Below are positions 25,412-48,144 of a stretch of DNA of 64,000 nucleotides, piece by piece (the stretch's first letter is position 1; each line of letters starts with the position of its first letter). The stretch spans positions 62,001 to 126,000 of the forward strand of contig NZ_JACIGI010000002.1 in NCBI RefSeq assembly GCF_014197795.1, read 5' to 3'. Source of the stretch: Roseospira goensis (GTDB lineage: Bacteria > Pseudomonadota > Alphaproteobacteria > Rhodospirillales > Rhodospirillaceae). Made by a program: the position numbers and the translations under genes. The notes beneath the pieces were generated by a model. The model saw only the letters and a list, made by a program, of their open reading frames with translations, was not told the DNA's origin and did not search any database.

Positions 25412-25529
25412 GGGCGGGGGTCCTCTTCGCTGCGCGTGGTGTTCAGCCGAGAGAATGGCGCGCGGGCCGCCATTGGTCCAGGCGCCGGCTTCGATGGCAG
25501 CGATCGGGCGCGGTGATGGGGGCGGCGCG

Positions 25530-25718: not shown

Positions 25719-28700
25719 TCACGGGGCGGGCGCCAGGGGCAGGAACAGGCGCTCCACGGTCAGCAACGGGCGCTGGTCGTCCTCCAGCGCGGAATAGAGG
25801 GTGAGCGAGAACACCCATTCGCCGCCCTGGGCGACGGGCGCCGCCGTCGCGCGCCACTGCGCCACGGCCGATTGCATCACGCCGGCGGTTTGATCCGTCA
25901 ACGGCTGGTTCGGGTACAGATAGATCGGGGTCTCCTCGATCAGACCGTGGCGCGGATCGAGCGGGTCCGTCGCCAGTTCGTAGGCGTAGGAGACCCCCAT
26001 GGTGACGGTCAGCGACCCGTCCAGCGCGTCCGCGCCGAACAGGGTTTCGAACGCAGCCTGTAGGGCCTCCGCCACGCCCTCGGGCTCCGGGCCGGTCTGG
26101 AGCGGCACCCGCTCGTCCCACGGGTTGAACGGGGTGACGACGCTCGCCGCTTCCACCGTGTCGGTCTGGAAGACGAAGGCGGCGTTGGTCTCCGGACCGT
26201 CCGGGCCCAGCAGTTTCTGGTTGCGCCGCACGGCGATCGAGCCGGTGGCGTTCTGCCAGCGGGCCACGTTGAGGTCGGGGACGGTCAGGGTGAACGTGGG
26301 CCAGAGGGCGGGAACCCGGACCCCCTCCGGCACCTGGTAGCGGGTGATGGTCTCGGAGACGGTTTCGGGCGCCAGGGACACCGCTCGGCCGTCCACCGTC
26401 CGGGCCGTCACCTGCGGCCAGACGCCGTCCGGGCCGACGGGGGTCTCGAGGGCGGTCAGAGTCAGGTGGTCCACCTCGCGGGTGCCCGCCTCGGCGCCGT
26501 CGCGGTCCGTCACCCGCGCCCGGAACGCGAAGGTCTCCGCCGCCAGGTCGGCGGCCGCCCGGCTCCGCCGCGCCTGCTCGGGCTGGTGGCGGATGGTCCA
26601 GTGGTCGGCGATCGGGCGGGCCAGATCGAGGAAGGTGCCGGCCGCCGTGCGCTGGGTGGGGGACAGGGGGCCGTCGGTCTCGGCCAGGGTGTCCAGGATC
26701 GCCCACAGGTCGTCGGCGACGGCCATGTAACGCGCGAGCTGCGGGAACAGATCCTCCGTCTCCGCGCGCGCCTCCCGCAGATCCCCGGGCCGTAGGTTGT
26801 AGCGCAGGGTCACGGTGACCTCGTCCTGCTCGGCGTGCTCGTGGGCATAGGTGAAGGCGTGGTCCCACAGCGCCATGTCGGCCAGCGGGACGTCGGTCTC
26901 CGCCCGGACGGTCCCCCGGCGTCGCCGCGCCCGCACCCGGGCACGCGCCGGCGCGTCCAGGGCGGAGGGCGCGGCCGACTGCCCGCGCGCCTCCGGCAGG
27001 GCGGGGAAGACCCGCAGGGGGATGGGAACGGAGACCGTGCCCAGGTCGGAGGACAGGGCGGCGGGACGATGGTCGCCGCTCAGGGGCGGCAGGAAGCTCA
27101 GCCACTGGGAGGACGCGTAGCCCTGGGGCAACCCCGCCGTGACGATGTTCCGCTCCATGTCGGTGATGCCGAAGGCCATGTCCGCCGTCACGGCCCGGTG
27201 GGTGGCCGGATCGGCCTCGCTCAGGAGCATGGTGACGAAGGGCGAGCGGTCGGTGAGCCAGCACTTGGCGGCGGTCATGGTCCAGGAGCGGTCGGTCCCG
27301 GTGTCGCCGGTCACCGTGATGCCGCCGTAGAGGTCGGCCGGGGCGAGCCCGGACTCCGGGTCCTGCCAGGGCGAGGAGACGGTGCGGTCGAGCTGGACCA
27401 GGGCGGCGGCGGACCAGGCCTGGGACAGGCTGACCCCCAGCCGCTGCTCCAGGGTGGCCGCGGCGGCGGCCTGACCCGCGGCCTGCTGCGGATCGTCGAT
27501 CTCCAGAACGGGGGCGAGGCCCTCTGCGATGGCGCCCGCCAGGTCGCGTTTGACCGTGACGATGCCGGCCAGGGTGTCGCGGGTCTCCGCCGTGCGGTAC
27601 AGCGCCGCGGCGGTCCCGGCGCTCAGGATCCGGTCCATGTCCGACAGGAACCGGGTGGCCCAGGGCTGGGTGTCGATGCCCTGGAAGTCGGTGTCCTCGG
27701 CGTGCGGCGACAGCGCGCCATCGGGTCGCAGGGTGCGGATGGACACCCCTTCGCGACCCACCGGGCGGGTGTACAGGGGGGCGAGGGCAAAGAACCGCGG
27801 CTGCGGCCCCGGGGCGCCGGGCACCGTGGTGGTGCCGGCGATGGTGAGCGACCGGATGCCCGCCGCGCCGAAGTCCACCGCCCACAGATCGCGCCGGTCG
27901 TCCGCCGCCCGACCGGTCGCGACGCGCAGGTTGGGCAGGGCGTCGACCAGGGCGGCGATGAAGGCGTTGAGGGTGAGGCCGCCGGAGTCCGCCGCGTCGC
28001 CCGTGCCCTGGGGCGCGGGGATGACGGAGACCACCCGTTCGACACCGCCGCCGGCGCCCGGCTCGAAGTCCGGATTGACCAGGGCCGTGGGCCGGGCCAG
28101 GGACAACTGGACGCGCAGCGAGAAGGCGGGGCCGGGATAGGGACCATTGGCGCCGATCGGCAGGGTGATGCGTGCCGGGGACGGCGGCAGCAATGCCAGC
28201 GCCCCCGCCGCGAACAGCGGGATGTCCCGGTTGGCGGGCGCCTCGGCGAGGGCGGCGGGATCCACCTGCACGCCCGCCTCGGCGAAGCGGACGATCAGGC
28301 TGTTGAAGCTGTCGTTGGCCCGGGTCTCGACCGACACCAGCCCGTCCGGCCCCCGGACGGTGACCCCCGGGGCGATCAGGCCGGGCGTGCCGGCGTTGGC
28401 CAGGGCGAGGGCGCCGGCGCCGAGGCCGAACAGGTCCGGGATGTCCCCCGGCGTGGCCGCCCCGGCGAAGCGGGCGGGGGGACAGATCAGCAGCGCGCCG
28501 GGCTGTAGGGCGCCGGCGTCGGCGCCGATGCCGGCCACCAGGTCGGCCAGGGTGGCGTCGGGCGCGGTCGCGCGGACCTGGGCCAGGGCTTCGGCCAGGG
28601 ACTCCCCGTCGGGCGGCGTGGTGATGGGGACCGTCTCGCCCCCCACCGGGATCTGCAAGGTCGTGTCCCCGGCCAGGACCCGGGGCATGGCGGCGTTGTC

Positions 28701-31700
28701 CGTCGCCAGCGCCAGCGCCGGATCGTCGCCGGGCCAGGCGAAGCGGGGCGCGACGGCGTCGAGGGTGTCGCCGGCCCGCAGGGTGTAGGGATTGCGCGCC
28801 AGGGCGGGATCCGCGGGCCAGACCGCCAGACCGGGGATGGCGAACAGGCCGTCCGCCGGAACGGCCAGGTCCGGATTGGCCGCCAGCAGGAGTTCCCTCG
28901 GACAGGCGTAGGCGTCGGCGAACTGGCGCAGGGTCTGGTCCGGCTCCGGCGTGATCCCGGCGCCGTCGTTGAAGGCCCCCAGGTGGATCAGCGCGCCCAT
29001 GTCGAACAGGTTCGGGGTCGCCGTGTTCAGGGCCGCCAGCTGGGCCTGGGAAAGGCCGCTGCCGGTGCTGGCGAGGGTCTCTCCCTCGGCCGCCACCCAC
29101 TGGGTGCTGGCGACGGTTTCGTCGGCCTGGAACAGGCCCGGACGGTCGGCGTGGGTCTCGCCCAGGTCCAGGGGGGTTACCGTGACGCCCGCGGCGGCGA
29201 AGGCGGCGCAGACGGCGTCGAACGAGCGGATCGGCGGTGTCCCGTCGGGACCGGTGACGGTCACGGTGACCACGGTGTCGTCGGAGACCGCGACGGAGAA
29301 CGTGACCCCCTCCTGCAGGATCGGGGCCGCGGCGTTGTCGCGCGCCAGCGGACCCGGTGTGGTGCCCAGGGCGTCGGCCAGGTCCGCCAGGGACGGCGAC
29401 CCGTCGCCGGTGCCGTGGGTGAGCGGCGGCGAGACCGCCAGGGCGGCGCCGACCCGCAGGGGCAGGGTGCCGTTCTCGGGATCCGCGAGCAGCGCCTCGG
29501 GCTTCACCCGGGGCCAGCCCGCGGGCCGGGTCGCGCCCGCCAGGGTCTCGGCGGTGTCGTTTTCGGCGAACACGGCGAAGGCGGGGACGACGACGGACGC
29601 GCCGCTGCCGAACAGCGCCTCCATGGGCCGGTCGGCGTTGGCGAGGGCCATTTCTGCGGGCCGCACACCGAATTCGGTGGCGATGGATCCCAGGGTGGCG
29701 CCCTCGGGTGCCCGGGCGGCGCCCAACCGGGCGGCGGCGGCGTTGAACGCCTGGGCGGCGGCGGCGAAGCGCCACAGCAGGGCCGGGTCGACGGCGTGGT
29801 TGGCGCTGGTGTCCAGCGAGGTGGTCACCGTGGCGGTGAGCGTCTGGCCGAGTTGGTAATAGGACTTGGCGTAGGCCTCGGCCTGGCGGCCGGCGGCCGC
29901 CGCGGCCGCGTCGCCGGGCTGGGCGGGGCCGGGCATGACCGTTGAGGGGCGTGGATCGACAGAGACGGTGAGCGAGACGCGATCCCCCTCGCGCTGGACG
30001 GTGTACCCGGTGACGACGGCGGGCCAGTCGCCCACGCCAATCAGGGGGTCGGTGTAGCCGGTGGGCATGGCGACGGTGCCCTGGCCCTCCGGTGCGGGGC
30101 CGGTGCGATTGCCCAGGATGTCGTGGAACGTCAGGCTGGCGGTGGCCGTCGGCAGGCTCTGCGCGCGGCCGAAGCCTCGGTACGGATCGTCCTGGGGATC
30201 GGGGAGCCCCGGGACGGCGGGCAGCGCGGAGGCGCCGGCGAACCGGCTGAGGGGCAGGATCTGGTCATAGCGCCACAGGGGCTCGGCCTCCAGGGCCGTC
30301 CGCCGGTCGCGGCGCAGGCCCCGGCGCACGAGGCGCGCGCGTTTCCAGGCCGGGGGCGGGCTCGCCTCCGACGGTGCGGGCGGCGCGGGCATCCCCGAAG
30401 CCGCCATGACGTAGGGTGAGGCCCCGCTCTGCGGGATGGCCACACCCAGCAGGCTGAACAGCCGCCGCAGTTGCAGGACCGCCGCCTCGGTATCGCCGCC
30501 GCCGGGGGGCTGGTCCGGGGGCGCGTCGAGCGCCAGGGTGAACCCGGCGCTGCCCGGCGGAACCAGGGCCTGAAGGATGGTGTCCTGCTCCCCGTGGTCC
30601 TCCGCGTAGAGGGTGTCGATGGCCGCTTCGAGGCCCGGGGCGACCAGGGCGCAGGTGTTGAACGGCAGCAGGGGGCGCCCCTCCGGCGCCGGGTCCTGTT
30701 GCGATCCGGCGATGACCAGAAGGTCGATGGTCGCGATGCCGTTCTCGTCCAGGGCGCTGGCAGGCAGGCCCGCCTCCAGGCCGACCGCATAGCCGACGCC
30801 GCCGACCACGCTGCCTTCCCACAGCAGGGTGACGAAGCGCTCCAGCTCCGCCAGCGAGGCCGCCGGCCGCTCCGGCTCGTCGCCGCGGGCCAGGGCGCGG
30901 GTCCGGCCGGCGGCAATGTCGGGCGGCCGGGGCACGGTTTCGGTCGAGAGGTTGGCCTGGATGATGAAGGTGTCGGTGGGTGCCCCCGGCAGCAGGGCGA
31001 GTCCGGCGGCGTTGCCGGCGTTGGGCGCGGGCCGCGCCAGCACATGGACCACCGTGCCCGCGCCGGCGCCGTCGGCCAGCCACTGCCGCAGGGCGAGGAG
31101 CACCGGGCGGTCCGCCTCGGCCACGCCGTGCAGGGCGAACAGGGTGAGGTCGTCGTTGACCTGCTTGATCCGCACCGGGATCCGGCTGGCCCAGGTGGCC
31201 TCGGCGACGGTCGCCGCCGCGCGGCCGGTGGGTTCGCCCTCGGCGGTGGCGAGCAGGTCGTAGGGCACCGTCGACCCGGCCAGGGCGCGGGCGCGCAGGT
31301 CCTCGGGGAACGGCCACAACGAGGGCTGGGCGCTGACCGGCGGGCCGTCCATGCCGGGGATGGGCAGCGCGATCGGCGTCTGCACCTCGATGCGGTGTGT
31401 CAGGCCATGGGCGCGCGGGCTCCGCTCGGCCAGGGGCATTGCCGCCGGCGGCTCCGCCACGGGGATCCCGTAGGCGGTGGCCGGTCCCATGGCGATGATC
31501 TCGGCGTTGCTGTAGGCGTAGGTCAGCTCCGCCGCTGCGGCGGTGGGGATCACCATCCCCCGGGGCGCCGCGGCGCGGGCGCCGAAGGCGCCGGCGGGCG
31601 CCGTGCCGCCGCCCTCGGACACCGTGCTGTCGACCAGGGTCACCCAGGCGGTCTGGGACGTCAGGGTCAGCGAGAGGGCCGGGTCCCCTCCCTTGTCCGG

Positions 31701-34700
31701 GTCGGTGTCCACGTCCAGGTCGAACTGCTGACCGGTCAGGTCGTACAGTGGCGCCGTCTGGTCCGGGCTGGGGACCACGTGCCCGTCCTGCTCGACCGGC
31801 AGCGGGGTGCGCAGCCCGCCCAGGAGCGAGCGCGAGGCCTGGTTGACCACGCGCGGCAGGGCCTCGCCGTCCAGGATGCCCCGGACGATCCCCGCCACCG
31901 TCATGACCGGCAGTTGGGTCACGGTGAGGTCCGTGCCGATGGCGTAGAGCCCGGGCCGGTCCGCCAGCCGGTCGGCGGCGTCGGCCACGCTCAGGCCGTA
32001 GGTCCGCGACAGGACCGCGAAGCTCAGCGTCCCGCCCTCGGGCGCGCGGGCCACGGCGCCGGGCACCGGCACCACGGCCAGGGGCGCGAGGATGGGCGCC
32101 GCGCCCGCCCAGCCCAGGATCGCCGGCCAGGCATAGGTCCAGGTGCCGCGCGCCGGATCGCTCCCGTCCTGGGTCCAGGTGGCATCCAGGATCAGGCGCC
32201 GCGCCAGGGCCTCCATGCTGTCGCCGGGGGTGACCGGCAGGCCGCTCCAGGCCGGCAGCCCGTAGCTGTTGGCGCCGGTCTCGGTGACCCCCGCGAGGAA
32301 ATCGAGCCAGTCCGGCGCCTGTTCGGGCGCGCGGTCCGGGTAGACCTGGACCAGCGTCAGGGCGGCGGCGATGCGGTCGAGGGTATCGCCGGCCACCGTG
32401 GTGTAGTCCATGGTCGGGGACACGGCGTTGAAGGCCTGGGGCACCTGGAGCACGTGGCCCGGCGGGATCTCCAGGGAGGTCACCACGCGGTCGTTGCCGG
32501 TCAGGGTGGACAGCAGATCGCGGTTTATGTCGTACACCGCCTGGGCGTACCAGGCGGCGGGATCCAGGGACGGCAGGACATAGCGGACATAGGCCGTCGC
32601 CGCGGCCATGAGGCGGCTGTCCGGACCGGCCTGCCAGATGCGCGCGGGCAGGTCGAAGACGCTGCCGCCCCGCAGCACCTGCGTGGCGGCGCCCAGCGGT
32701 CGGTCGCCCCCCGGTCCGGTGAACAGGGCGGTGGCGGAGTCCAGGTTGAACAGCGCGGCGATGCCGTCCAGCGTCTCGCCGTCCGCCACCTGGTGGGGCA
32801 GGTTGCCCAGCGTGACGGTGTCGAGGGCGAAGGCCTGGTCGGCGTTGTCCTGGGCCAGCACCTCCGGGGCGACCCCCAGGGCGATGGACAGCGTCGATCC
32901 CACCGGCGCGGCGGCGAGGCGCTGCGCGAGATCCGGATTGAGGAAGGTCAGTTCGGCGGCGCTGGCGCCGAGCGCGTCGGCGACGCTCTCGACGGTGTCG
33001 CCGGAGCGGACGGCATAGTCGACCGTCGCCGAGGGGAACGTGCCCGCCAGGTCGGCGAGGGTCTGTCCCTGGCCGTCGCCCCCGTCCGCCACCGTGACCC
33101 GGGCCACGGCGAGCAGGTCTTGCGCCTCCTTGACCGCGGCCTTGGCGATCATCAGGCAGTAGTCGCGGAAGATGTAGGTGGGATAGGACTCGTAGGCGGC
33201 CGGGTCGTCGACCGCGGGGCGCGGGCCCGCCGCGCCGCCCACCGGCAGATAGTCCCCCGTGCGCCGTGCCACGCCCCATTCGTACCACGGGCCGACCGGG
33301 TTGATGGCGGCGAAGTCCACCGTCCCGCCGGGCGTGCCCGTGCGGGTCAGGCCCGGCGGCAGGGGGGCGACCATGCCGCCCACCTCGGTTGCGTCGCCGC
33401 CCGGATCCCCGGCCAGCAGCAGGTGGAGGTTGGTCGCGAACAGGCGGTCCAGCATGTCCCAGGCGAAGCCCAGGTCGGCGGTTTCCGGATCGTCGAGTGC
33501 GGCCGTCAGCAGGGCGAGCTGGCCGGCGGTGACCGGATCGGTTTCCGTCGCGGGGCCGTCGGGGATCGCGTACAGGCAATACAGCAGCAGGACCTTGACC
33601 CAGAGGTCCGGGGTCAGGGTGTCGGTGTCCCCGTCGTCGGCGGCCAGGGCGTGCTGACGGGCCGACCGCCGGGACGTCGCCGCCGCGGTCGCCGCCTCCG
33701 GGGTCTCGCCCGAGTTGGCGCACAGCAGGAACGCCACCCGGTAGAGCGGATCGGCCGGCGGGTCGGGCGTGGTCGTCCAGTCCACCGGGGGCGCGCCCAG
33801 CGAGACGGTCGGCAGCAGGTGCAGCAGGGCCTGTCGCGGTTCGCCGTCCGGGAACAGGGCGCGATCGGGGTCCCAGCCCCAGGCCCCGGCGAGGCTCCGC
33901 CCCGGCCCCAGGACCAGCGCCCGCCTCGCCCGGGCGCGCCGCAGGTGATGATCGCGCAACGCGGCCAGCCGGCGCATCCGGTTGCGGCGGGCGTAGCCGC
34001 TGCCGCCGCGGACCAGGGTTCCGCCGGTGCCCAGCAGGCCCAGCCGCGCCGCCGCGCTGTCCGCCCGGAAGGGGGCGGGGTCGCCGCCCGGGGCCACGAT
34101 CCAGGGCGTCTGTTCGGTCGTTCCCAGGACGTAGGTCAGCTCCAGCTCGACGTGGAAATTGAAGGACACCTTGATGAACAGCACCTTCACCTTGGCCTGG
34201 GCGTCGACCGACACCAGCATCTCGAACGTGGTCGGCCGGTAGGCTTCGAACAGGGCGGCGACCTGGGCATAGGCCTCCAGGGTCACGGAAACCTTGATGA
34301 CCTTGAAGTCGACGTAGCCGTAGACCTTGCCGTGCATGGCCGCGATGCCCAGGGCGCGGAAGTACTGCGCCGGGGGCTGGCCCGCGCTGGCCGGGTTGAA
34401 CCAGCCGAGCACGCCCTGGAAGATCACCTGGACCTCGACGTAGGCGCCGCCGGCGAGGATGCCGGCGCGGATCTCGCGACCCACCCCGGCGGCCAGGCCC
34501 ACGCCCAGTTCCAGCACCGGCGCGAAGGTGCCGTTGGTGATGCGCGGCACCTGGCTGGAGGTCACGCCGTCAAGAAGACCGACGTAGACCCCGCCGCGGC
34601 CGATGAAGATGTAGGCCTGCACCGAGAAGGAGCGGGTGAAATCCTGGTTGTATGGGAAGCCCAGGTCGACCTTGAAGTTGCCATTGGTGTAGACCTCGAC

Positions 34701-37700: not shown

Positions 37701-37759
37701 GGGCTACCTCTCGGAACCGGGGACGGGGCGGGCACCGCGAACGGTGGTGCGGGGGTGGG

Positions 37760-39151
37760 TCATCGCCGTGGCTCCAGCCGACGGATCGCGCGCGCGGGGC
37801 GGGCCGGCGGGCGGGCGGCGCCGGCCGGCACGGGACCAGCAAGGCCGCCGGGGGCGGGTGCCCCCCGGGACGGGGCGATGGTCTCCCGTTGGAACAGGGC
37901 ATGGAGTTGCGCGGTGGTCTTGGGCAGGCGGTTGCTGGGAATCCCCGCCATCGGGATGTTGCGGGTGTTGACCGAGGACTGGGCGTCGATCTGGTATCCC
38001 CAGTTCATGCCCTCGGTGAACGAAACATCGGAGGGCATTGTGACTTCACTATAGGGCGGGAAGATGAAGTTGCCCTTGATAGTGTTGAGAGCATAATAGA
38101 GGTTGGTATAGTAGTTCTCATTCGAGAGAAACGTATAGTTCTTGTACGGCGTGTCGATGGTGTCCGAGACCGGAACATCGAAGTATGCCGAGACCAGGTG
38201 GTAGGGGGACAGGGACTCGTCCGACCACCACGGGCCCCTGTGGTCGGCGAACGTCAGGAAGGCGTTGATCGTTTCCAGGGAGGGGTGAGAATGCTTGGTG
38301 TCCGCGCTGACCACGATGGTGGCGCCGTAGGTCAGCGAGGCGAAGGTGTTCACGACCTTGCGGGCTTCCTCGCTGATGGCGCCATTGGTCGAGGACAGGC
38401 CGAAGGTCGTCAGGCGGCTGCCGTGGTGGGGCGCCAGCAGCATGAAGGTGTCCTGGAGCCAGACCTTGTGTTCCAGGAAGTGCTGGTTCACGAACTGGAA
38501 GGTCGAAAAGGTGGCGTCGCCGAAGATGACGGCGCCGACGTTGAACATCTTCATGTAGATGCCGAGCGACGTCGAGTTGGCCAGGTCGCCGTCGGGCTTG
38601 GACTTGGCGTAGACTTCTTCGACCAGTTTCCCCTGCGACGTGGCCGATTCCGAGGTGTTCACGGCGATCACGTAGGCCGAGGCATGGTCGCTGTCGAACA
38701 CGCTGACCCAGTCCTTGATGTTCGGGCTGGGAAAGCTTGAGCAGCCCACCCGGAAGTTGCGGACATCCTCGTCCGCGTTCTCCGTCCGCTCCCCCAACTT
38801 GGTCAGCACGTTTCCCTTTGAGCTGGTATACCATTCGCTGCGGCCGCTATGGTAAACGTAGCCGATTTCCATCTCGGGAAGCGCCTCCAGCAGGGACCAG
38901 ATCAGATTGACGTGATCCGAGTCCTTGTGGGAGATGAACATGGCGTCGAGGTAGCCCTTGTCGTCTCCGCTGCGCGCCTTGATGCGCTTGGCGAGGAACT
39001 CGACGGTGGGGCCGCCGGCCCGTCGTTTGCTCTTGCTGGAGCCCAGGTCGAAGAGAGCGTTCGCGACAACGTCGTTTTCCTCGTCGTATTCCTCAAAATA
39101 CGTGCACATGCCCTGGCCGACGTCGAGAGAGTAGAGGCGTTGGTAGCTCAT
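37760..39151 (-). CDS. ComEC-like metallo-beta-lactamase-fold protein, lower GC
   Basis: 463 residues. The N-terminus has LYSLDVGQGMCTYFE, the first strand motif of ComEC/Rec2-type MBL-fold proteins; SHKDSDH (74-80) is the metal motif (H75, D77, D79, H80 instead of the usual H-x-H-x-D-H), GDAT (211-214) and APHHGS (240-245) supply further ligands. Such proteins are nucleases or hydrolases; the membrane channel part of ComEC is absent. The body is AT-richer than its neighbours, while the last ~45 residues switch to a GC-rich Pro/Ala/Arg tail. No signal peptide is seen. It lies between the giant and the 1233-aa gene with short spacers. Its partner or substrate is unknown. Confidence 0.8.
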   Translation of the reverse strand: MSYQRLYSLDVGQGMCTYFEEYDEENDVVANALFDLGSSKSKRRAGGPTVEFLAKRIKARSGDDKGYLDAMFISHKDSDHVNLIWSLLEALPEMEIGYVYHSGRSEWYTSSKGNVLTKLGERTENADEDVRNFRVGCSSFPSPNIKDWVSVFDSDHASAYVIAVNTSESATSQGKLVEEVYAKSKPDGDLANSTSLGIYMKMFNVGAVIFGDATFSTFQFVNQHFLEHKVWLQDTFMLLAPHHGSRLTTFGLSSTNGAISEEARKVVNTFASLTYGATIVVSADTKHSHPSLETINAFLTFADHRGPWWSDESLSPYHLVSAYFDVPVSDTIDTPYKNYTFLSNENYYTNLYYALNTIKGNFIFPPYSEVTMPSDVSFTEGMNWGYQIDAQSSVNTRNIPMAGIPSNRLPKTTAQLHALFQRETIAPSRGAPAPGGLAGPVPAGAARPPARPARAIRRLEPRR

Positions 39152-39188
39152 CGCGTTGCGTTCCCGAGCGGGTCAGAGGATCGGCGAG

Positions 39189-42100
39189 TCAAACGACGGG
39201 CGGGGTCCGCCGGCCGGCGCGGGCCAGGCGCGCGGGGTCCGGCCGGGAGCGGGCGATGGTGCGGGTCCCGGTCCCGGTTCCGGTCCCGGTTCCGGTTGGG
39301 GGCAGGCTCTTTGTCTCCTCGCTGTCCTCCTTGGCGTAGGCGGCGTACCAGCCCAGGGCGGCGCGGGGATTGCCGGGGGCACCGAACAGCAGCACCTCGT
39401 TGTTGCCGGGCGGGAAGCTCCAGGCGAGCACCGAGAGGGCGAAGCGGCGCAGGCGCAGCAGGTAGGCCAGGCGGTCCTCGCCGTCCCGGTAGGTCTCGAA
39501 CTGGAAGCTGCGGAAACCCAGCTTGAGCACCCCTTGCAGGGGCAGGCTGCCGTTGATCGCGTTGGTCATGCCCAGCTTCAGGCCCAGGTAGACGGTTGGC
39601 TCGCCGCCCGACGCCTCGGGTCCCCAGGCGGCCAGGAGCGTGATGTCCAGGCCGATCGCCCCGCTCAGGTCCCCCAGGGTGCCCATGTCCAGGCCCAGGG
39701 CGAGGCCGTACCAGGGCGCCGCCAGGGGCGTCTGGGTCAGGGGCGCGGAAATGGAGGTGAACCCCAGGCTCTCGGGCGTGGCGCCGGTGGGCGGTTCGCC
39801 CGGCGCGGAGAGGTCGGGCGCGGCCACCAGGCCCTGGAGGCGCAGCGGGAAGTTCGCCGCCAGGGACTCCGGTCGCGCCAGCGAGGCGCCGGGTCCGCTG
39901 TCGAAGGCGATCGCCGCCTCGCCGGCCGAGAAGGTCTGGTCGGCGGGGTCGCTCAGCGGGAAGGCCATCGAAACCACCAGACCCTGGAACGACAGATAGC
40001 CCTCCAGCCCGGCCTCGCCGGGGCCGTAGGAGAACAGGTCGAACCCGGGGATGGCGAGGAAGGTCAGCCGGCCCGACAGGGTGAAGTTGGCGGTCAGCGT
40101 CCCGTCGACCGGGGCGGCGGCGGTGTCCATCCGGCAGTCGCGCACGTCGATGCCCACCAGGGCCGCGCCGTCGGTCTGGTAGACATTGTCGCCCAGCAGC
40201 GTGAAGGCGTAGCTGGGCTGGCCGCCGACCCGCTGGTAGGAGCCGTCGAGGATCAGATTGTTGCCGCGCGCGCGGTCCGCCTTGGCCAGCCAGGACCCGA
40301 ACAGCCGGTTGACCATCAGTTCCGCCTGGGCCGAGAAGTCCACCACCCGCGCGTTGTCGAACCGCACCCGCATGGCCAGGGTCTTGAAGCCGAACGGGAT
40401 GGTGGTCGAGGCGACCAGATCATCCGGATCATTGTAGTCGATCAGGCCGAAGGCCGCGGTCTGGCCCAGGTCGATGACGCCGTCCCGGGGGGTGTAGGGG
40501 GTCACGGAAAAGCCGACGTGATGGGCGAAGAACCGCGCCTGATCCACGCCCGCGGCCAGGAAGCGCAGCGCCTCCGGCATGCCCGCGAAATCGACCGGCG
40601 CGTTCAGGACCAGCACGCCGTTCCAGCGCGGGTTGTCCAGCACCTCGTGATAGAACAGGGCCAGCGGATCGCCCTCTGGCGTGTCGGGGTCCACGGCCTT
40701 GAGGCGGGCGCGCCGGATGATGCCCTCCAGCACCCCAAGGGTGGGGGCGAGCGATCCCTCCGGGGATCGGGCCGCGGCGCTCCAGCCCCAGGCCGCCGGG
40801 TCCTGCGCCAGGTCGGTGATCGGTCGGGCGCAGTACTTGATCAGCATCAGGGTCGGCGACAGGGGGTCGGTGCGCCAGGAGCGCGGCGAAAGCTGGAAGG
40901 TCCAGCCCTCGATGTCGGCGCGCAGCAGGCCCGCCGCGTCCTGGGCCTGGGCCAGGTAGTCCCCGGCCGGGGCGGCGACCACGGCATCGAACGCCGCTTC
41001 GGTGGGGAACAGGGGATAGGGCGGGGTCTGGGCGGCGAGGGCCTGGGTGATGGCCTGGGCCTCCGCCGGCGGGACCCCCGCCTGGGCGAGGCGCGCCAGG
41101 GCGGTGTCGGCGGTGAGCTGGTAGGCCACCGAGGAGCCGCCCATGAAGGTGTCGACGTTGGAGACCACCGTGAACACCTGGTTCGCCTGCAACGCCGCCT
41201 GGAACGGAGGCCCCACCGCCGTCAGGGACAGGCGCTGGGTCGCGGACCGGGGCATGTTGGCGAACAGCATCCCGGCCCAGGCGTTGCGGTCCGGGGTGAG
41301 CACGGCGATCAGCCCGTTGGGGGTGACGCCCAGGGGCGCGTCGCCGGCCCCCTCGCCCCGCCCGGAGACGAGCGCGGCCGGCACGGCGGCGGCGGGGCTG
41401 TCCGCCGGCCGCGCCTCTGGCAAGCCGATCGCCTGGCGGCGCCGGGGGGCGAGGGCCGCGGCCTCGATCCGGTCGGCGGTGTCGATGGCCGCTGGTGGGA
41501 TGCGCGCGTAGACCCCCATGGGCCAGGCCGGCGGGGGGGACTCCAGGCTGTCGTGCAGCGCGGGCAGCCGTGCCGCGACCATGGCGAGGTAGGACAGGAA
41601 CCCCGCGGCCGGCGCGGACTCCGCGTCGAACAGCGGTGACCGCAGCGGCTGGGCCAGGTAGTCCCGACCGGGTCCGCCGGGGGTGGCGGGCAGCACCGTG
41701 GCATGCGCCGTGGTGCCCAGGTCGGTGAGCAGGACCCGTTCGACCTCGCCGGCCGGCGCATCGGGGGTGACCGGCGGCACGTAGGCCGCGCCGTTGCCCC
41801 GGAACAGCAGGATCGAGCCCTCGTCGTCCGGCAGCACGACGCATTCCGCGCCCGACGTGCCCAGGATCATCCGCGCCCCCTGGCCGCCGGCGGCCTCTGG
41901 GGCGGAGAGTGCGAACTGGCCGTCGGGGGCCAGGTGGTAGACATAGGCGGCGCTGGCCGCCTCGGGCGCGTGGAACAGCGGCGTCCGGCCGAAGCTGAGG
42001 CGGGCGCCCGGCAGGGCGCCGTTGGCGGCCAGGGGCGTGACCTGGGTCGGATGCCCGGTATCGGTGCGCTGGGCGAACGTGAACACCGGCGGGGTCTCCG

Positions 42101-42890
42101 CCCCGCCGTCGAAGGTCAGTGCGGTGCGCTCCGGCCGCAGCGGCGTGAGCGGATCGAACGACACCGACAGGGTGAAGGTCACGGCGTTGGTCTGCTGCAA
42201 CAGCGGCATGTCGACGATGGACACCGCCGCCGTGGGGCTCGCCGCCTCCACCTCGCCGTAGCGCAGCATCACCCCCAGCCGGTCCGGGTCGTCGCCGGCG
42301 CCGGTCTCGCCCTGGTGGGCCGCGACGGGGAAGGTCAGGCCGCCCAGGTGGGCGCCGCTGAGGGGCAGGCTGCCCGCGCCGCCGGTGGCCGGGTAGACGC
42401 CGCCCGGGGCCGAGAAGGCGAGCCGGGGATCGGTCACGGCGATGGCGTCCGCGCCCGCCGTCAGGACGGCGCCGCCGCCCACCGCCACCGCGTACGATCC
42501 GAGCTGGAAGCGGGCATCGCGCACGCTGCGCCAGGGGCCGGCCGGCTCGCCCGGGGTGGCGGGCAGGGCGTCGATCCCCTGGGTGGTCCAGGCCTGGGCG
42601 GGGGCGTTGGGGTTGGCCAGCCAGAGCAGGCGCAGCCAGCCCCGGGGCGACAGCCGGGGCAGCAGCGCGCGCAGGGCGGCGAGGAACCCGTCGGGGTCCG
42701 CGGGCGCGCTGTCCAGGAACAGGTAGAGCCCGCCCACGTCCGCCCAGGTCTCGGCAAGCGTGGCCTGGTCGCCCAGCGCGTCGTCGGTGCTGGCGGCATA
42801 GCCGGCCCAGTAGTCGGGCAGGCCGCTTTCGGCCCGCGTGCTCAGGGCATAGAGGCCCGGGGCGATCCGGTCGAAGGAAGGGGTGGTCAT
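39189..42890 (-). CDS. Unrecognised 1233-residue protein of the giant-gene cluster
   Basis: The ATG at 42890 lies 23 bases after the stop of the preceding gene, suggesting co-transcription. The N-terminal 80 residues (YWAGYAASTDDALG, WADVGGLYLFLD) look globular. A long beta-rich body follows. The C-terminal third has repeated segments such as GLALGLDMGTLGDLSGAIGLD and YLGLKLGMTNAINGSLPLQG that echo the style of the giant protein's 900-1200 region. A (GT)n-type coding repeat gives a Gly-Thr run near residue 1205, then a basic Arg-rich tail. No signal peptide or membrane span is evident. I cannot name a family; it is probably a structural partner of the giant. Confidence 0.65.
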   Translation of the reverse strand: MTTPSFDRIAPGLYALSTRAESGLPDYWAGYAASTDDALGDQATLAETWADVGGLYLFLDSAPADPDGFLAALRALLPRLSPRGWLRLLWLANPNAPAQAWTTQGIDALPATPGEPAGPWRSVRDARFQLGSYAVAVGGGAVLTAGADAIAVTDPRLAFSAPGGVYPATGGAGSLPLSGAHLGGLTFPVAAHQGETGAGDDPDRLGVMLRYGEVEAASPTAAVSIVDMPLLQQTNAVTFTLSVSFDPLTPLRPERTALTFDGGAETPPVFTFAQRTDTGHPTQVTPLAANGALPGARLSFGRTPLFHAPEAASAAYVYHLAPDGQFALSAPEAAGGQGARMILGTSGAECVVLPDDEGSILLFRGNGAAYVPPVTPDAPAGEVERVLLTDLGTTAHATVLPATPGGPGRDYLAQPLRSPLFDAESAPAAGFLSYLAMVAARLPALHDSLESPPPAWPMGVYARIPPAAIDTADRIEAAALAPRRRQAIGLPEARPADSPAAAVPAALVSGRGEGAGDAPLGVTPNGLIAVLTPDRNAWAGMLFANMPRSATQRLSLTAVGPPFQAALQANQVFTVVSNVDTFMGGSSVAYQLTADTALARLAQAGVPPAEAQAITQALAAQTPPYPLFPTEAAFDAVVAAPAGDYLAQAQDAAGLLRADIEGWTFQLSPRSWRTDPLSPTLMLIKYCARPITDLAQDPAAWGWSAAARSPEGSLAPTLGVLEGIIRRARLKAVDPDTPEGDPLALFYHEVLDNPRWNGVLVLNAPVDFAGMPEALRFLAAGVDQARFFAHHVGFSVTPYTPRDGVIDLGQTAAFGLIDYNDPDDLVASTTIPFGFKTLAMRVRFDNARVVDFSAQAELMVNRLFGSWLAKADRARGNNLILDGSYQRVGGQPSYAFTLLGDNVYQTDGAALVGIDVRDCRMDTAAAPVDGTLTANFTLSGRLTFLAIPGFDLFSYGPGEAGLEGYLSFQGLVVSMAFPLSDPADQTFSAGEAAIAFDSGPGASLARPESLAANFPLRLQGLVAAPDLSAPGEPPTGATPESLGFTSISAPLTQTPLAAPWYGLALGLDMGTLGDLSGAIGLDITLLAAWGPEASGGEPTVYLGLKLGMTNAINGSLPLQGVLKLGFRSFQFETYRDGEDRLAYLLRLRRFALSVLAWSFPPGNNEVLLFGAPGNPRAALGWYAAYAKEDSEETKSLPPTGTGTGTGTGTRTIARSRPDPARLARAGRRTPPVV

Positions 42891-42912
42891 GGCCGCGCCC
42901 TCGCCGCCGTGG

Positions 42913-45900
42913 TCAGGGCAGGTTCGTGGTCACGGAATCCCCCGGCAGCAGGGGCAGGGACAGGGCGGTCCACCCCGGCCCGTAGGCCCCCAGCCCGCTC
43001 CAGTCCAGGCGCACCGGCCACCGCTGATCGGCGGTGGCGGGGGCGGTGGGGTCGAGAACCGCGGCCCCCAGGCTGCGGGTCAGGGTCAGGCCGGTGACCG
43101 GTCCGGGCGCGGCGAACGGCGCCTGGCCGCGCTGGGCGAGCAGGTTGGCGACGGTGGTTCCCACCGGCACCACCATCGGGGCGCCGTCCAGGGTCACCCG
43201 CAGGCAGGGGCGGGGCATGGCCCGGCCCCGGAAGTAGGCCACCGGATCGGCGCCGCCCGGGGTGTTCCCGGCGGTGGTCAGCGCGGTGAAGCTGCTCGCC
43301 GCGGCCAGGGTGACGTTGGTCGGGGTGTCCGTGGGCGTCGGATCGCTGGCCCCGGGCAGGGTGGTGGGCGCGAACAGCCGGTAGAAGGGGGCGACGAAGG
43401 CGGGGAAATAGAGGTCCGCGGCATCGGCCACGCCCCCCATCTGCTCGGTGGTGTCGTGCGACGGCGGGGGATTGACCGACAGGGCTCCCCCGGCCACCAG
43501 CTGGCCGAAGAAGCTGTCCCAGCCCGTGGTGATGCCGCCGGCGCTGTCGATGAACTGGCCGACCTCGTAGTCGACCACCGGACCGGCGACATAGCCGTTG
43601 CTCCAGCGCAGGGCCGAGGAACTCTCCGAGATGGCCTGATAGGGGCTCGCGGCCACCCGCAGGACCATGCCCGGACGCAGGTCCACCGAGCCCAGGGTGG
43701 CGCCGGTGTCCGCCGACGGGACCGTCAGGCCGTAGCCGTAGTACAGGACCTCCGCGAAGGTCTGCGGCAGGGTCCGGGACAGGGCATCCTGGATCGCCAG
43801 GATGCCCCAGGGGGCGGCGCCCGCGCTCTCCAGGGCCTTGAGGAAGTCCACATAGGCGGCGCGCAGGTCGGCGCGGATCGGTTCCGCCCCGAACGACCAG
43901 GGCGAGGGGTCGTCCGGGCCGTCGCCGCCGACGGCGATGGTCAGGGCATAGGGATAGGCCGGCGCAGCCGAACTCGTCGCCAGGGAAAACGGGCCGGCGG
44001 TCACGGGCAGGCCGGACAGCGGCGTGCCGTTGCCCACGTCGGGCACAAAGAGCGTGATGGGCGCCCCGGGGGTGCCGCCGGCCAGGGCGGTGGCCAGCCG
44101 GGCCGCCGGGTAGAGATGGGGGAAGGCCACCGAGGCGGCCGCGGCCGAGGGCACGAAGGCGGGCCTGAACAACGCCACGGGGGCGCTCGGCGGACCCAGG
44201 TTGTCGGCGGTCTCCACCGGCTGGTTGGCCTGGACCACCACGGTATGCGTCGCCGAAGGGGTCGACGGGGTGTAGGGCCAGCGTCCGCCGGTGGCCCCCG
44301 CCGGGGCGGTGAAGGGATCGCCGTCGCGCGTGGTCGTGCCGTCCGTCGTCTGCAACACCGTGACGGTGAAGGAGGCGGCGGCCGGCACCGGGTCCCAGTC
44401 CACGGTGAGCGTGGCGCCGTCGTAGCGGGCCGACACGCCGTCCGGTGGCGCGTGGGCCAGCGTGAAGGGCGCCGAGACCGGGCCCAGGACCGCGCGGCCG
44501 TCCTCGGAGACGGCGGCCCGGACGGTCACCCGGGGCGGAGCGCCGCCGGCCGCCAGGATCCCCGCCGGCAGCGGCGCGGTGGTGTCGTCGGCGTAGAGCC
44601 GCGCGCCCCCCGGCAGGTCGATCCGGTACCCCGAGACGCCGTCCAGGCCGGCCCAGCGCAGGGTGGCCGTGCCGGTCAGGGCGTCGACCGCGAAGCCGGT
44701 CACGGACGGGGCGGCCGCCACCGCCGCGACGGGCGGCGCGGCGGTGTTCAGGGCCGCGCCGGCGCCGGGCGCCAGCGCGACGGTCAGGGCCGGCGGGGCC
44801 CCGTCCGCCACGCCCTGGACCGCGGCCGGCACAGGCAGGGTGGCCGACAGGCCGGCCGCGCGGACCGCGGCGACGGGGGTGCCGTCGGCGTGCAGGGTGA
44901 GCCGGGTGTACTCGGGTGGCACGGTCGAGCCCGGCGCGGTCCAGCACACATCCAGCGTGGTGTTGTCGGGCGCGCTGGTCACGCTGGTCACCGCCGCCGT
45001 GCCGGTCACCACGGGCACCAGGATGCCCTCCGCGCCGATGCCCTCGCCCGTGGCGATGACCTGGGCCAACCAGGTCTGATCGTCGGCGAGTGGGCCGCCC
45101 AGCGGGATGGTCCCGTGCGTGGCGGTGCCGCCGGAGACGCTGGCCGTCATGGCCTGGCCGGTGGTCTGCGAGAACACCTGAAGGGTGAAGCCGCTGACCG
45201 CCGCGTTGGCGGCCATGTGCCAGGTCAGGGCCATGGTCTGGCCGTCGTAGGTGGCGCCCTTGATGCTCGGCAGGGTGGCGATGAGGGGTGTGCCTGGCGC
45301 GGACACGCCCGCCCCCGCCGCGCCCACGGCGGCGACCCGCAGCAGGACGGGTTCGGTCTCCGGCAGGGGGGCGGGCAGGGCCAGGGTGCCGTTGGTCGCG
45401 CTCGCGGCCAGGGTGATGGCGTGTTCCGTGCCGGAGTTGACCCCGATGGCGCTCAGGCGCACCGAGTCGACGCCCTGCGCCGGGGGCGCGGACCAGCGCG
45501 CGACGATCGCCGTGCCCTGGCGGTAGAGGCTGCTCGCCTCCAGGGTCGGGCAGGCGAGGGGTTTCGGGAAGGCCGCCAGGTCGGCGCGCGCCGACGCGTT
45601 CCCCTCCCCGACGGCGGCCACCGTGATGACCCACTGCTGCGCGGCGTCGAGCCCCCCGCCCATCTGCGCGGCGGTGATGACGCCGGCGGTGGTGTCCATC
45701 CCGGCGACGGGGGTGCTGTAGGTCAGGCCGCTGTCGGTGGAGAAGACCACGATCTCGTAGCCGACCGCGGCCTGCCACGAGGGCGCCCAGGTCGCGTGGA
45801 TGTCCGATCCGTCATACAGGGCGGAGACGAGGGCCGGGCGCGCGGTCGGCAGGATGACCGGGGCGCTGGCCTGTCCCGGGGTGTCGTCCCACAGGGCGCG

Positions 45901-46164
45901 GACCACGACCTGATAGGCCACATCCGTGTTGAGCGGCTCGGGCAGCGTCAGGGTGCCCCGGTTCGTGGTCCGCCCCGGGATCGGATCGCTCTCGTGGGTG
46001 ATGACGGTGTCGCCGCCGCCCAGGTAGGCCAGGAGGATGACGTAGCCCGTGACACCCGTGTCCTGGGACGGGGTCCAGGCGGCCCGGACGCTCGCACCGT
46101 CGTAGATGGCGGACGTGATCTTGGGATCGTTCGGATCGGTCTGGTCTTGATCGGTGGCGGCCAT
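42913..46164 (-). CDS. Fibronectin type III-like repeat protein
   Basis: 1083 residues; start ATG at 46164 with ggaggatc just upstream. The first ~680 residues hold about seven FnIII-like modules, each opening with a phrase such as SAIYDGASVRAAWTPS, SALYDGSDIHATWAPS, GATYDGQTMALTWHM or SARYDGATLTVDWDP (Tyr-Asp-Gly, then a core Trp) and continuing with a Gly/Tyr strand. The C-terminal ~400 residues are of a different kind (RADLRAAYVDFLKALESAG, VDYEVGQFIDSAGGITTGW), ending in a beta segment with VTLDGAPMVVPVGTTVANLL. No signal peptide. FnIII modules usually mediate protein or carbohydrate binding, often at the cell surface. Confidence 0.75.
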   Translation of the reverse strand: MAATDQDQTDPNDPKITSAIYDGASVRAAWTPSQDTGVTGYVILLAYLGGGDTVITHESDPIPGRTTNRGTLTLPEPLNTDVAYQVVVRALWDDTPGQASAPVILPTARPALVSALYDGSDIHATWAPSWQAAVGYEIVVFSTDSGLTYSTPVAGMDTTAGVITAAQMGGGLDAAQQWVITVAAVGEGNASARADLAAFPKPLACPTLEASSLYRQGTAIVARWSAPPAQGVDSVRLSAIGVNSGTEHAITLAASATNGTLALPAPLPETEPVLLRVAAVGAAGAGVSAPGTPLIATLPSIKGATYDGQTMALTWHMAANAAVSGFTLQVFSQTTGQAMTASVSGGTATHGTIPLGGPLADDQTWLAQVIATGEGIGAEGILVPVVTGTAAVTSVTSAPDNTTLDVCWTAPGSTVPPEYTRLTLHADGTPVAAVRAAGLSATLPVPAAVQGVADGAPPALTVALAPGAGAALNTAAPPVAAVAAAPSVTGFAVDALTGTATLRWAGLDGVSGYRIDLPGGARLYADDTTAPLPAGILAAGGAPPRVTVRAAVSEDGRAVLGPVSAPFTLAHAPPDGVSARYDGATLTVDWDPVPAAASFTVTVLQTTDGTTTRDGDPFTAPAGATGGRWPYTPSTPSATHTVVVQANQPVETADNLGPPSAPVALFRPAFVPSAAAASVAFPHLYPAARLATALAGGTPGAPITLFVPDVGNGTPLSGLPVTAGPFSLATSSAAPAYPYALTIAVGGDGPDDPSPWSFGAEPIRADLRAAYVDFLKALESAGAAPWGILAIQDALSRTLPQTFAEVLYYGYGLTVPSADTGATLGSVDLRPGMVLRVAASPYQAISESSSALRWSNGYVAGPVVDYEVGQFIDSAGGITTGWDSFFGQLVAGGALSVNPPPSHDTTEQMGGVADAADLYFPAFVAPFYRLFAPTTLPGASDPTPTDTPTNVTLAAASSFTALTTAGNTPGGADPVAYFRGRAMPRPCLRVTLDGAPMVVPVGTTVANLLAQRGQAPFAAPGPVTGLTLTRSLGAAVLDPTAPATADQRWPVRLDWSGLGAYGPGWTALSLPLLPGDSVTTNLP

Positions 46165-46284
46165 GGGATCCTCCGAGAGGGCCTGGACGGCCCGGACAAG
46201 GGGGCCGGAACGCGGATCGGCAGGGCGACCGGCCCGGTCCGGGAGGCGGTCCGGGAGGCCGGGGGGGCGCCGCCGGCGCGGGCG

Positions 46285-48144
46285 TCACTGGTGGTTGTCG
46301 AAATCCTGGTGCCAGACCTCGGGCAGGCTCTCGCGGATCTGCGCGGGGGAGCGGGCCAGCGTGCGGTTCGCGATGGTGGTCAGCGACTGCTGCATGACCG
46401 CGTCGCCGGTCAGGATGCCGCCGGCGAAGAAGGTGCCCGCGCGGCCGCCTTCCTCGACGGTGAGGTTGTGGACCACGCCCTCGTAGGTCTCGGGGGCGAT
46501 GGCGGTCACCGTCGCCGAGCCCTCCAGGGTGGTGACCCGGTCGCCGACCCGCAGCGCGCGGGCCTGCACCGGCACGCCCTCGGCCAGGATCACCGGATGG
46601 GTGCGGGTCATCAGCACGTCGTGGCCGGCGTCGGTCTGGATCCGCAGCATGGGATGGGGCTCGCGCCCCTGGGTGGTGCCGCGCACCAGCCGCGTCTGGC
46701 CGTGGGCGGTCTTGACCCGCTCCTGCTGGTTCGCGGTGAAGGCCTCCACGGGGCGCTCGCCGCCGTCGGCCAGGGCGATCGGGGTGCCGGCGGCCAGGCA
46801 GCCTTGCAGGATGGTCAGCGGCGGCACGATGGACACGCCGGGAACGCCGATCTGCGAGCGGTCGCTGGTGAAGTTGATCGTGCCGAACGGGGGCGGTTCG
46901 CCGCCGCCCGAGCCGTTCAGGGCGACATAGGCGGTGACCCACAGATAGGCGGTGGTGGCGTCGTAGTACTGGATGCAGTCGCGGTTGTTGGGAAAGGCCG
47001 CCGCCGGGTAGTTCCAGGAGATCTGTTTGTCGTCGACGGTCCAGTACTGAGGATCGAGGACCTCGCCCTGCTTGTAGTAGACGTTACAACCGCCACCGTT
47101 CGGGTTCTGGATGTAGATGGTGACCACGCCGGCCGGCGGCGAGACCACCGTGTTCGGATAGGAGACGGAGCCGGAGAGCGGGAACACGAAGTCGGTCGGG
47201 TGCGAGGTGGAGTTCCAGTAGTCGCACTCCTGCTGACTGCCCCGGTACCAGCAAATCTTGATCGGTGTTTCGTTGGCCTTGGTGTTGGTGCAGCTCGTCT
47301 CGTAGGACCCGGTGCACTGGCCCGCATTGTTCCGAACGCAATAGTTCGGTTGTTCCATGCAGGCTTGCGTCGGATTCAGGGTGTCCTGGAAGGTCTGGAC
47401 GTAGACCACTGGTTCCGTGTCCGCGGCCGCCGCCGCACTGCTCTTCGGATAGTAGACGAACAGCCCCTGGGCCCGGGTCGTGGGACTGCCGGCGTCGGGG
47501 GGGACCTGGCCCTCCACCTGGACGCGGAAATCGGTCCCCTGGCCGTACTGGGTCTCCGACTGGGTGGCGTAGACGTGGCCGCTGTCGGCCTCGTACAGCT
47601 CCATGACGATGGAGGTGGTGGTCGTGCCGTTGACGACCGACGAGATCCCCGTGGCCTGATAGCCCACGGGGGCGTCGTCTTCGCCGCGGGCCATGGCCAG
47701 GGCGGCCGCCGCGTTGTCCTCGGAGAAGGTGGCGATGAAGTTGAGGTCCTGGGGCGTGCCCGTTTCCGCCACGACGGCCGCGAGCGTGGCCTGCGGCGCG
47801 GGCGTGCCCGCGGCTTCGAGGCGCGCTGCCCGGCGCTCGTGGGTCTCCCGCAGGCTCTGGAACAGATACGGTGAGCGTTCGGGGGTCTCCCCGCCGCGGC
47901 GCAAGGCGGCCATGGTCACGCGGTAGTGCAGCGGGTTGCCCAGGTCGAGGCGGTGCGGCACACCGATCGCCACCTCCGCGTCGAGGGCCCGCAGATCGGC
48001 CATGTCCGCCTCGGACAGGACCGGGGCGCGGCTCGTCCCGCCATCTTCCGCGGCGGGCGCGGGGGCGCTCCAGGCGACGAGGGCCGCCAACAGCACGACG
48101 GGGGCAAGGCAACGGGTCATCCAGGGGGCACCATTGCGGATCAT
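46285..48144 (-). CDS. Secreted protein with C-terminal Hint (hedgehog/intein) domain
   Basis: 619 residues from the ATG at 48144 (ggag upstream). A signal peptide ends near APAPAA. Residues ~260-308 have six cysteines in a compact region (NYCVRNNAGQC, ETSCTN, KICWYRGSQQEC), expected to be disulfide-bonded in the periplasm or outside. Residues ~448-580 are a Hint domain: CLAAGTPIALADGGERPVE starts it with the nucleophile Cys, TRTHPVIL is the block B His, and YEGVVHNLTVEEGG plus FFAGGILTG close it. The usual terminal His-Asn of inteins is missing, as in hedgehog-type or bacterial Hint domains that cleave without splicing. About 40 residues follow the domain. This is the first gene of the five-gene block. 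Confidence 0.82.
   Translation of the reverse strand: MIRNGAPWMTRCLAPVVLLAALVAWSAPAPAAEDGGTSRAPVLSEADMADLRALDAEVAIGVPHRLDLGNPLHYRVTMAALRRGGETPERSPYLFQSLRETHERRAARLEAAGTPAPQATLAAVVAETGTPQDLNFIATFSEDNAAAALAMARGEDDAPVGYQATGISSVVNGTTTTSIVMELYEADSGHVYATQSETQYGQGTDFRVQVEGQVPPDAGSPTTRAQGLFVYYPKSSAAAAADTEPVVYVQTFQDTLNPTQACMEQPNYCVRNNAGQCTGSYETSCTNTKANETPIKICWYRGSQQECDYWNSTSHPTDFVFPLSGSVSYPNTVVSPPAGVVTIYIQNPNGGGCNVYYKQGEVLDPQYWTVDDKQISWNYPAAAFPNNRDCIQYYDATTAYLWVTAYVALNGSGGGEPPPFGTINFTSDRSQIGVPGVSIVPPLTILQGCLAAGTPIALADGGERPVEAFTANQQERVKTAHGQTRLVRGTTQGREPHPMLRIQTDAGHDVLMTRTHPVILAEGVPVQARALRVGDRVTTLEGSATVTAIAPETYEGVVHNLTVEEGGRAGTFFAGGILTGDAVMQQSLTTIANRTLARSPAQIRESLPEVWHQDFDNHQ

Follow-up and report, generated by a model that had tools for sequence, protein, structure and literature searches.

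The window analysed here, a 64,000-nucleotide stretch of Roseospira goensis (positions 62,001 to 126,000 of contig NZ_JACIGI010000002.1; positions below are those of the window), carries five large minus-strand genes occupying ~22 kb, the core of which is a conserved pair: a 1233-residue protein, P3, and a 3993-residue giant protein, P5. Carriers of this core are found in four phyla (Pseudomonadota, Actinomycetota, Cyanobacteriota and Bacillota), and a metal-enzyme gene of changing family often lies between the two. This anatomy is held with high confidence, and we propose that the locus encodes one self-contained multi-protein complex. Among the possible functions the likeliest, which we put forward tentatively, is a delivery mechanism similar to that of the toxin complexes (Tc), in which a released particle would carry the enzyme into a target cell.

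All five open reading frames (ORFs) are present where the original prediction had placed them, with spacers of 120, 22, 37 and 59 bp, and the products are referred to as P1 (Hint), P2 (FnIII), P3, P4 (metallo-beta-lactamase fold, MBL) and P5 (the giant; Table 1). Guanine-cytosine content at third codon positions (GC3) is 0.86-0.95 in the five genes, within the range of the adjacent genes. As also predicted, P1 is the sole protein with an obvious N-terminal signal-like stretch by hydropathy, and P2-P5 have no export signal by the same measure. Chance or spurious frames are ruled out by the 50-68% identity of the locus in four Pseudomonas genomes and by the relatives in four phyla.

The comparison of gene order in other genomes proposed with the prediction revealed a shared order, with the complete series (Hint, FnIII, P3, MBL, giant) recurring in Pseudomonas, Tistrella and Embleya. 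Scanning genomes with P3 identified eight loci: four in Pseudomonas, each with the complete ordered series, and four in cyanobacteria (Leptolyngbya and Adonisia) with P2, P3 and the giant. Plasmid searches added Embleya and Tistrella, both with the five-gene order (the Tistrella giant being in two genes), as well as Mycetohabitans, Nostoc, two Azospirillum, Lysinibacillus and Paenibacillus; genome searches contributed additional Pseudomonas as well as members of a single genus, to which the Tistrella record belongs. In total, 22 stretches were examined with profiles of each part, among them three cyanobacterial and three Tistrella-type loci that are near copies and so not all independent. P3 is followed on one strand by the three conserved blocks of the giant, GC1, GM and GE, in 18 of these 22, although two of the 18 end inside GE and Azospirillum lipoferum is matched only in the second part of GC1. 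The remaining four are LeptoSIO (P3, GC1 and GM, then the sequence end), P. putida (downstream piece only), and G185 and G696 (L055 and L047), which have truncated P3 genes with no adjacent giant and are apparently decayed loci.

Conservation of the genes apart from each other, which had been named beforehand as speaking against a unit, is not seen for P3 and the giant: they are found together in every examined locus that has a full-length P3 and available downstream sequence. The idea of a single unit is therefore sustained for the core and for the five-gene loci but weakened for the other members, as the Hint and FnIII genes are absent from many loci and MBL is absent in others or replaced by an EEP enzyme unrelated to it. 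The defining pair of the unit is P3 and the giant, with MBL, Hint and FnIII less tightly bound.

The two core proteins also co-evolve. Among 249 Pseudomonas genomes, P3 is present in five and the giant (scored by GC1) in four; all four genomes with the giant also have P3, and the remaining P3 is truncated. The centre genome is included in each count. Pairwise distances for P3 correlate across 18 loci with those for GC1, GM and GE (r = 0.949, 0.963 and 0.965 respectively), and across 12 loci with those for P2C, the conserved anchor domain of P2 (r = 0.972), with 0 of 2000 permutations reaching each r value. Part of this correlation is due to shared ancestry of whole loci, as a unit predicts.

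The distribution is rare and patchy. P3 is present in 5 of 289 genomes of the window's class (including the window's own and one truncated copy), in 1 of 244 cyanobacteria (the centre genome itself), and in 3 of 398 genomes of the phylum represented by a single sequence (own genome included), and MBL in none of 98 sampled relatives. P3 relatives occur in 8 of 72,556 plasmid records, a plasmid-only collection that reports on presence and not on enrichment. A phage origin was considered and is not favoured: there is no P3 match in the phage collection, and one of three viral-contig scans gave a relative.

The giant consists of three blocks that are constant between loci and are connected by LysM-like spacers that vary; in the second spacer, column occupancy is ~0.31 at giant residues 2701-3100. 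The length of the giant varies from 2100 to 4400 amino acids (aa) across loci. The window giant matches Pfam LysM at 36.7 bits, above the gathering score of 20.9. Between 0 and 20 LysM-like units are detected in each of the 17 giants for which a number is given (12 in the window, 20 in Pseudomonas G583, 0 in reversed sequences), with none detected in the Nostoc, Lysinibacillus and A. lipoferum giants. Description of the locus products as repeat-built fits P2 and the giant, and does not fit P3 or the MBL protein. In Tistrella, Paenibacillus, Mycetohabitans and a viral-contig (IMG/VR) locus two genes encode the giant, with interior break points that fall in at least three places, suggesting that assembly of the pieces does not depend on a single chain. 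The Pseudomonas bharatica giant (L003/L040+L041) is in two overlapping frames, reflecting either a disrupted copy or an assembly error; that of P. putida is a single frame of 3951 aa.

A 371-residue module of GC1 was modelled, and six strands of 17-23 residues are predicted in the second half of GC1. Hydropathy alternation is 4.5-5.0 in three of these strands and 1.9-2.6 in the other three, against a 95th percentile of 2.8. With modest confidence, the best-conserved module of the giant is predicted to consist of long amphipathic beta-strands. The top structural look-alikes of the model are apoB/MTP sheets and outer-membrane barrels; these are tied, as porin-type barrels lie within 1 Z unit.

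Searches of Pfam, NCBIfam, PADLOC and PDB sequences do not place the locus in an ordinary known family; they returned LysM, FnIII, MBL-type and weak Hint matches together with scattered ones below cut-off. The Pfam search that had been proposed puts fn3 and LysM above cut-off and gives P3 nothing above it (a weak match to Penicil_amidase has a value of 0.02), and P3 has no match in NCBIfam, PADLOC or PDB sequences. Most of P5 similarly has no match above the Pfam or NCBIfam cut-offs and none in PADLOC or PDB sequences. None of these libraries contains a named family for the core proteins. Internal duplication, or a common origin of P3 and the blocks of the giant, was examined by profile comparison and found unconvincing, the best pairing being GC1 with GN at a probability of 6%.

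The slot between P3 and the giant was compared in 19 loci that have both; it contains MBL in six, an EEP (DNase I-like) enzyme in four, and both together in none. MBL is also present in three further Pseudomonas loci, and two Tistrella-type genomes have two MBL copies. The motifs SHxDxDH, GDA and PHHG[SA] are found in 10 of 10 MBL copies scanned (the L005 copy left out), which agrees with the predicted presence of a metal-dependent hydrolase. The set SHxDxDH, GD and PHHGS we take to be the metal-binding motifs of the ComEC type, and on its motifs P4 qualifies as a member of the MBL-fold hydrolase superfamily. The slot EEP enzymes have GDFN in four of four and SDH in three by pattern and in the fourth by eye; N, E, H, GDFN and SDH are presumably the EEP catalytic motifs, by which the slot enzymes are classed. 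Three EEP proteins match Pfam PF03372 at 1.2e-4, 2.4e-4 and 6.7e-3, all below cut-off (the G561 enzyme left out), and the A. lipoferum slot gene carries an EEP annotation in the database record. Both kinds of enzyme are probably phosphodiesterases or nucleases. MBL carriers group together in a single clade of the P3 tree (100/100), and EEP carriers are found at three positions, of which one is a long branch.

Base composition also sets the enzyme genes apart, with GC3 below that of P3, GC1 and GE in eight of the nine loci given (ten have a slot enzyme, and G1133 is left out); the exception is G561, and the gap is clearest in Nostoc (0.24 for the enzyme versus 0.37-0.50). Protein composition may contribute to these low values. 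In the window, the first 1200 bases of the MBL gene (37952-39151) have a GC content of 0.53-0.63 versus 0.69-0.75 in the other genes of the unit. Other genes are found in or near the slot as well. In G583, whose slot has neither MBL nor EEP, an EEP-like gene with a signal-like N-terminus by eye lies upstream of P3 and is unmatched by the slot-EEP profile, and the Paenibacillus locus has a Nal1/trypsin-like protease gene upstream. Two cyanobacterial loci (L008:14313-14828 and L009:14671-15264) have a slot protein of 171-197 aa that looks, by eye, similar to the N-terminal part of the giant in cyanobacteria.

P2 joins its constant C-terminal anchor, P2C, to an exchangeable adhesion-type arm. Wherever P2C is present it lies upstream of P3, immediately so except in G583, where the EEP-like gene intervenes. 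Window P2 matches Pfam fn3 (E = 6.2e-6, 26.8 bits) above the gathering score of 25, and FnIII-like modules number six in the window and in P. bharatica, 15 in Embleya and five in Tistrella, with none in reversed sequences. No FnIII-like module is detected in the cyanobacterial P2 proteins, laminin-G being present in Nostoc, and the P2 of G583 is nearly armless.

The P1 frame (46285-48213) encodes 642 aa from a TTG at 48213, although the ATG at codon 24 (48144), which is also the limit given in the original prediction, is most likely the better start. P1 orthologues have 59-65% identity in Pseudomonas, where the signal-like N-terminus is also present by hydropathy, and are weaker in Embleya and Tistrella. 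Assignment of P1 to the Hint proteins is suggestive only: the match to NCBIfam TIGR01445 (intein_Nterm; E = 0.0032) scores 18.4 bits and lies below the cut-off of 24.5, the Tistrella orthologue scores 17.2 against a cut-off of 29.7, and in phmmer the Hint region matches chain 6rpp_A, presumably an intein structure, at E = 0.083.

Table 1. Features of the five-gene locus, with positions in the window.
Feature	Position	Strand	Remarks
P1, Hint-domain protein	46285..48144	-	Signal-like N-terminus, Cys-rich middle, C-terminal Hint and conserved tail
Hint/intein-like region of P1	46525..46800	-	Residues 472-563 counted from TTG
P2, exchangeable FnIII arm and conserved C-terminal domain	42913..46164	-	1083 aa
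P2C, conserved anchor domain of P2	42931..43875	-	Present in 12/22 stretches, including cyanobacteria and Pseudomonas G583
P3, core protein	39189..42890	-	1233 aa; alignment of 17 sequences
P4, predicted MBL-fold enzyme, swappable slot	37760..39151	-	463 aa
P5, giant	25719..37700	-	3993 aa; three conserved blocks, with P3 in 18/22 stretches
GC1, best-conserved giant block	34092..35666	-	Long amphipathic beta-strands predicted in second half
First LysM-like spacer	31926..33017	-	4 units; Pfam LysM 4.1e-9, hidden Markov model units
GM, second conserved giant block	29814..31997	-	
Second LysM-like spacer	28200..29711	-	8 units; absent or short in many relatives
GE, C-terminal conserved giant block	25740..28130	-	
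Promoter-like site upstream of P1	48371..48399	-	Consensus match only; two overlapping matches (48399-48371)

The original prediction left the function undecided between a surface or extracellular structure, an intracellular scaffold and a weapon-like complex; the evidence leans to the last of these without settling the matter. A released toxin complex would account for a core that stays constant while the enzyme and the adhesive arm can each be exchanged, and for large parts that have no export signal. In such a mechanism the proteins would form a complex that is assembled in the cytoplasm, as the lack of export signals in window P2-P5 suggests, and is then released as a Tc-like particle. The FnIII or lectin arm of P2 would bind the surface of the target, the amphipathic beta-strand module of the giant would insert into or cross its membrane, and P3 and the giant would carry the MBL or EEP phosphodiesterase/nuclease inside. 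The Hint protein would be exported in the window organism and may mature by self-cleavage. Candidate targets are a competing bacterium, a protist, a fungus or an invertebrate.

Like this locus, Tc toxin complexes are composed of a few very large subunits. They further share with it an exchangeable enzyme, surface-binding modules and large parts without classical export. One report describes release of a Tc toxin by a phage-like lysis cassette (PMC10847046), and another describes a toxic enzyme that differs between species (PMC6868009). The locus departs from Tc in that the enzyme has a gene of its own, placed between those for P3 and the giant, and is not the C-terminal portion of TcC, and in that no lysis cassette was recognised among the flanking ORFs scanned here; none of the TcA, SpvB-TcB and Rhs-YD families is matched at E <= 1 in a Pfam scan of all five proteins.

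In polymorphic toxin systems, Hint domains serve as processing parts. Exchangeable toxic enzymes, standalone toxin cassettes, and LysM and laminin-G adhesion modules are among the components described for these systems (PMC3482391). The exchangeable enzymes, the standalone cassettes and the LysM/laminin-G modules are common to both, whereas the enzyme here is a separate gene that is not C-terminally fused to a trafficking protein, and the 59 bp between MBL and the giant leave no room in the slot for an immunity gene, unlike in polymorphic toxin systems. The sheath, tube and baseplate genes that define extracellular contractile injection systems (eCIS) and phage-tail-like particles were found neither in P1-P5 nor in the 19 scanned ORFs that flank the unit, a search that did not extend to the remainder of the genome. 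None of the defining features of Tc, Rhs, contractile or polymorphic toxins is present among those tested. DUF6603 proteins are likewise large and beta-rich, a short segment aligns, and one of 15 GC1 members matches this family at 0.0074. Membership of DUF6603 (PF20248) was nevertheless rejected, with an hhalign probability of 1.3% and the best giant scoring 15.8 bits versus 27, none passing in 16 genomes or records. Embleya and Leptolyngbya PCC 7375 each encode three separate DUF6603 proteins (frames of 1006-1613 aa) elsewhere in the record or genome (L079-L082, L084, L085).

Several observations weigh against Tc-like delivery. Searches with P1-P5 gave no sequence match to a toxin-delivery family, and no lysis genes were recognised among the 19 flanking window ORFs, some of which are not real genes. 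Nine of the 19 loci have neither MBL nor EEP in the slot, and the three positions of EEP carriers in the P3 tree indicate that EEP could be ancestral, with MBL having replaced it once, in which case there would have been less swapping than the slot suggests. The EEP class itself is insecure in two loci: the G517 enzyme has no Pfam match at 0.1 and is assigned on motifs and a profile seeded with itself, and G561 on that same profile. P1 of Embleya and Tistrella has no obvious signal stretch at the called start. The proposed structure prediction of the giant was run with partial success, as the 371-residue GC1 model is modest (mean predicted local distance difference test score, pLDDT, 62; predicted template modelling score 0.42; residues 143-197 below 50) and gives nothing at E <= 0.001 in Foldseek, and a 1200-residue model of the N-terminal part is unusable (pLDDT 36.6). 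A further point is that the closest named families to P4 are defence enzymes, with matches to 6A-MBL (1.8e-5), RTasMBL (8.8e-7) and LmuA (1.3e-6) in NCBIfam and PADLOC and a weak one to ComEC (0.027).

These P4 matches favour an intracellular defence against mobile elements, in which P3 and the giant would sense phage or plasmid and switch on the MBL or EEP nuclease as effector. The MBL-fold nucleases of defence systems (6A-MBL, Avs1a, RT-associated MBL, LmuA) and ComEC presumably have the same motif set as P4, the distribution of the locus is patchy, and conflict-type genes neighbour it in several genomes, without a chance control: Cmr and SIR2 in A. lipoferum, a nucleotidyltransferase and E2 in Lysinibacillus, a caspase-like gene in Nostoc, and GAP1-N1/EAD1 in Pseudomonas G561. 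However, P4 scores far under the curated cut-offs where these are given (24.1 versus 220 bits for 6A-MBL, 9.9 versus 420 for Avs1a; RTasMBL, at 26.4 bits, has no given cut-off), P3 and the giant match no PADLOC family, and no ATPase or nucleotide-signal enzyme is recognised in the unit. The neighbours scanned in the window, P. bharatica, Embleya and Tistrella have metabolic or regulatory roles or no assigned function, again without a chance control, and the signal-like N-termini (window and Pseudomonas P1, G583 EEP), the Cys-rich P1, and the FnIII, laminin-G and LysM modules all point outside the cell. We regard a defence role as distinctly unlikely.

The same adhesive modules, together with the variable number of LysM-like units and the signal-like N-terminus of the Hint protein, would suit a surface or matrix structure, that is, an adhesive scaffold binding peptidoglycan or glycans whose phosphodiesterase processes extracellular DNA or lipids. 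This is unlikely too, given that window P2-P5 show no export signal and that enzyme exchange and locus rarity fit a weapon better than a structural part. A lipid-handling machine, with the amphipathic sheet of the giant carrying or bridging lipids in the manner of apoB or MTP, is quite improbable: the barrels tie with those sheets, the model is modest, and LysM, FnIII and nuclease-type enzymes are left unexplained. Returning to Tc-like delivery, its most specific form is a new cross-phylum class of giant-protein system in which P3 and the LysM-spaced giant make a membrane-crossing shell on an amphipathic beta-sheet, targeted by FnIII or lectin arms and loaded with MBL or EEP. We consider this form doubtful; such a class would, from the comparisons above, be unrelated by sequence to Tc toxins, contractile systems and polymorphic toxins.

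No published description of the unit was found in a search limited to open-access PubMed Central text, in keeping with the original statement that no described system has this combination, and a description elsewhere is possible. With core order kept across four phyla and most of the length outside existing families, a whole machine has possibly been overlooked. Should enzyme delivery prove true, the locus would add one more independent way in which a folded nuclease can be brought into a second cell; defence would imply a large new sensor-effector system, and lipid handling would imply that bacteria have their own equivalent of the large carriers built on amphipathic sheets. The conserved modules P3, GC1, GM, GE and P2C can serve as signatures for searches, and the question is open to direct test through the changing slot.

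The unit is flanked by an acyl-CoA dehydrogenase gene (24218-25579, minus strand) and by a divergent hydrogenase operon starting near 48829. Stretches from three sister genomes share the neighbouring hydrogenase genes; the stretch beyond is without alignment, so an empty site is not demonstrated. A promoter and terminator scan of 37500-48900 found no terminator-like site (3.1 expected from shuffles) and promoter-like matches at two places. One is upstream of P1 (Table 1), and the other is a cluster of three inside the MBL gene (38070-38121), of which one is on the minus strand ahead of the giant. This cluster may have arisen by chance where GC is low, or may mark an internal promoter.

Elsewhere, small proteins with a shared NYLxxW motif and no Pfam match at 0.1 are encoded just upstream of P3 in Mycetohabitans (L015:389-1147) and Azospirillum B510 (L017:15000-15680). 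The A. lipoferum locus on plasmid AZO_p2 (L019) has a SIR2-family gene on one side and a type III-B Cmr cluster on the other, and is surrounded by insertion sequence elements. On the 69 kb IMG/VR contig (L086/L088), which may be prophage, plasmid or host DNA, P3 and the split giant lie downstream of genes for an invertase (~2 kb), a primase/helicase (~7 kb), an integrase (~11 kb) and an endolysin (~16 kb).

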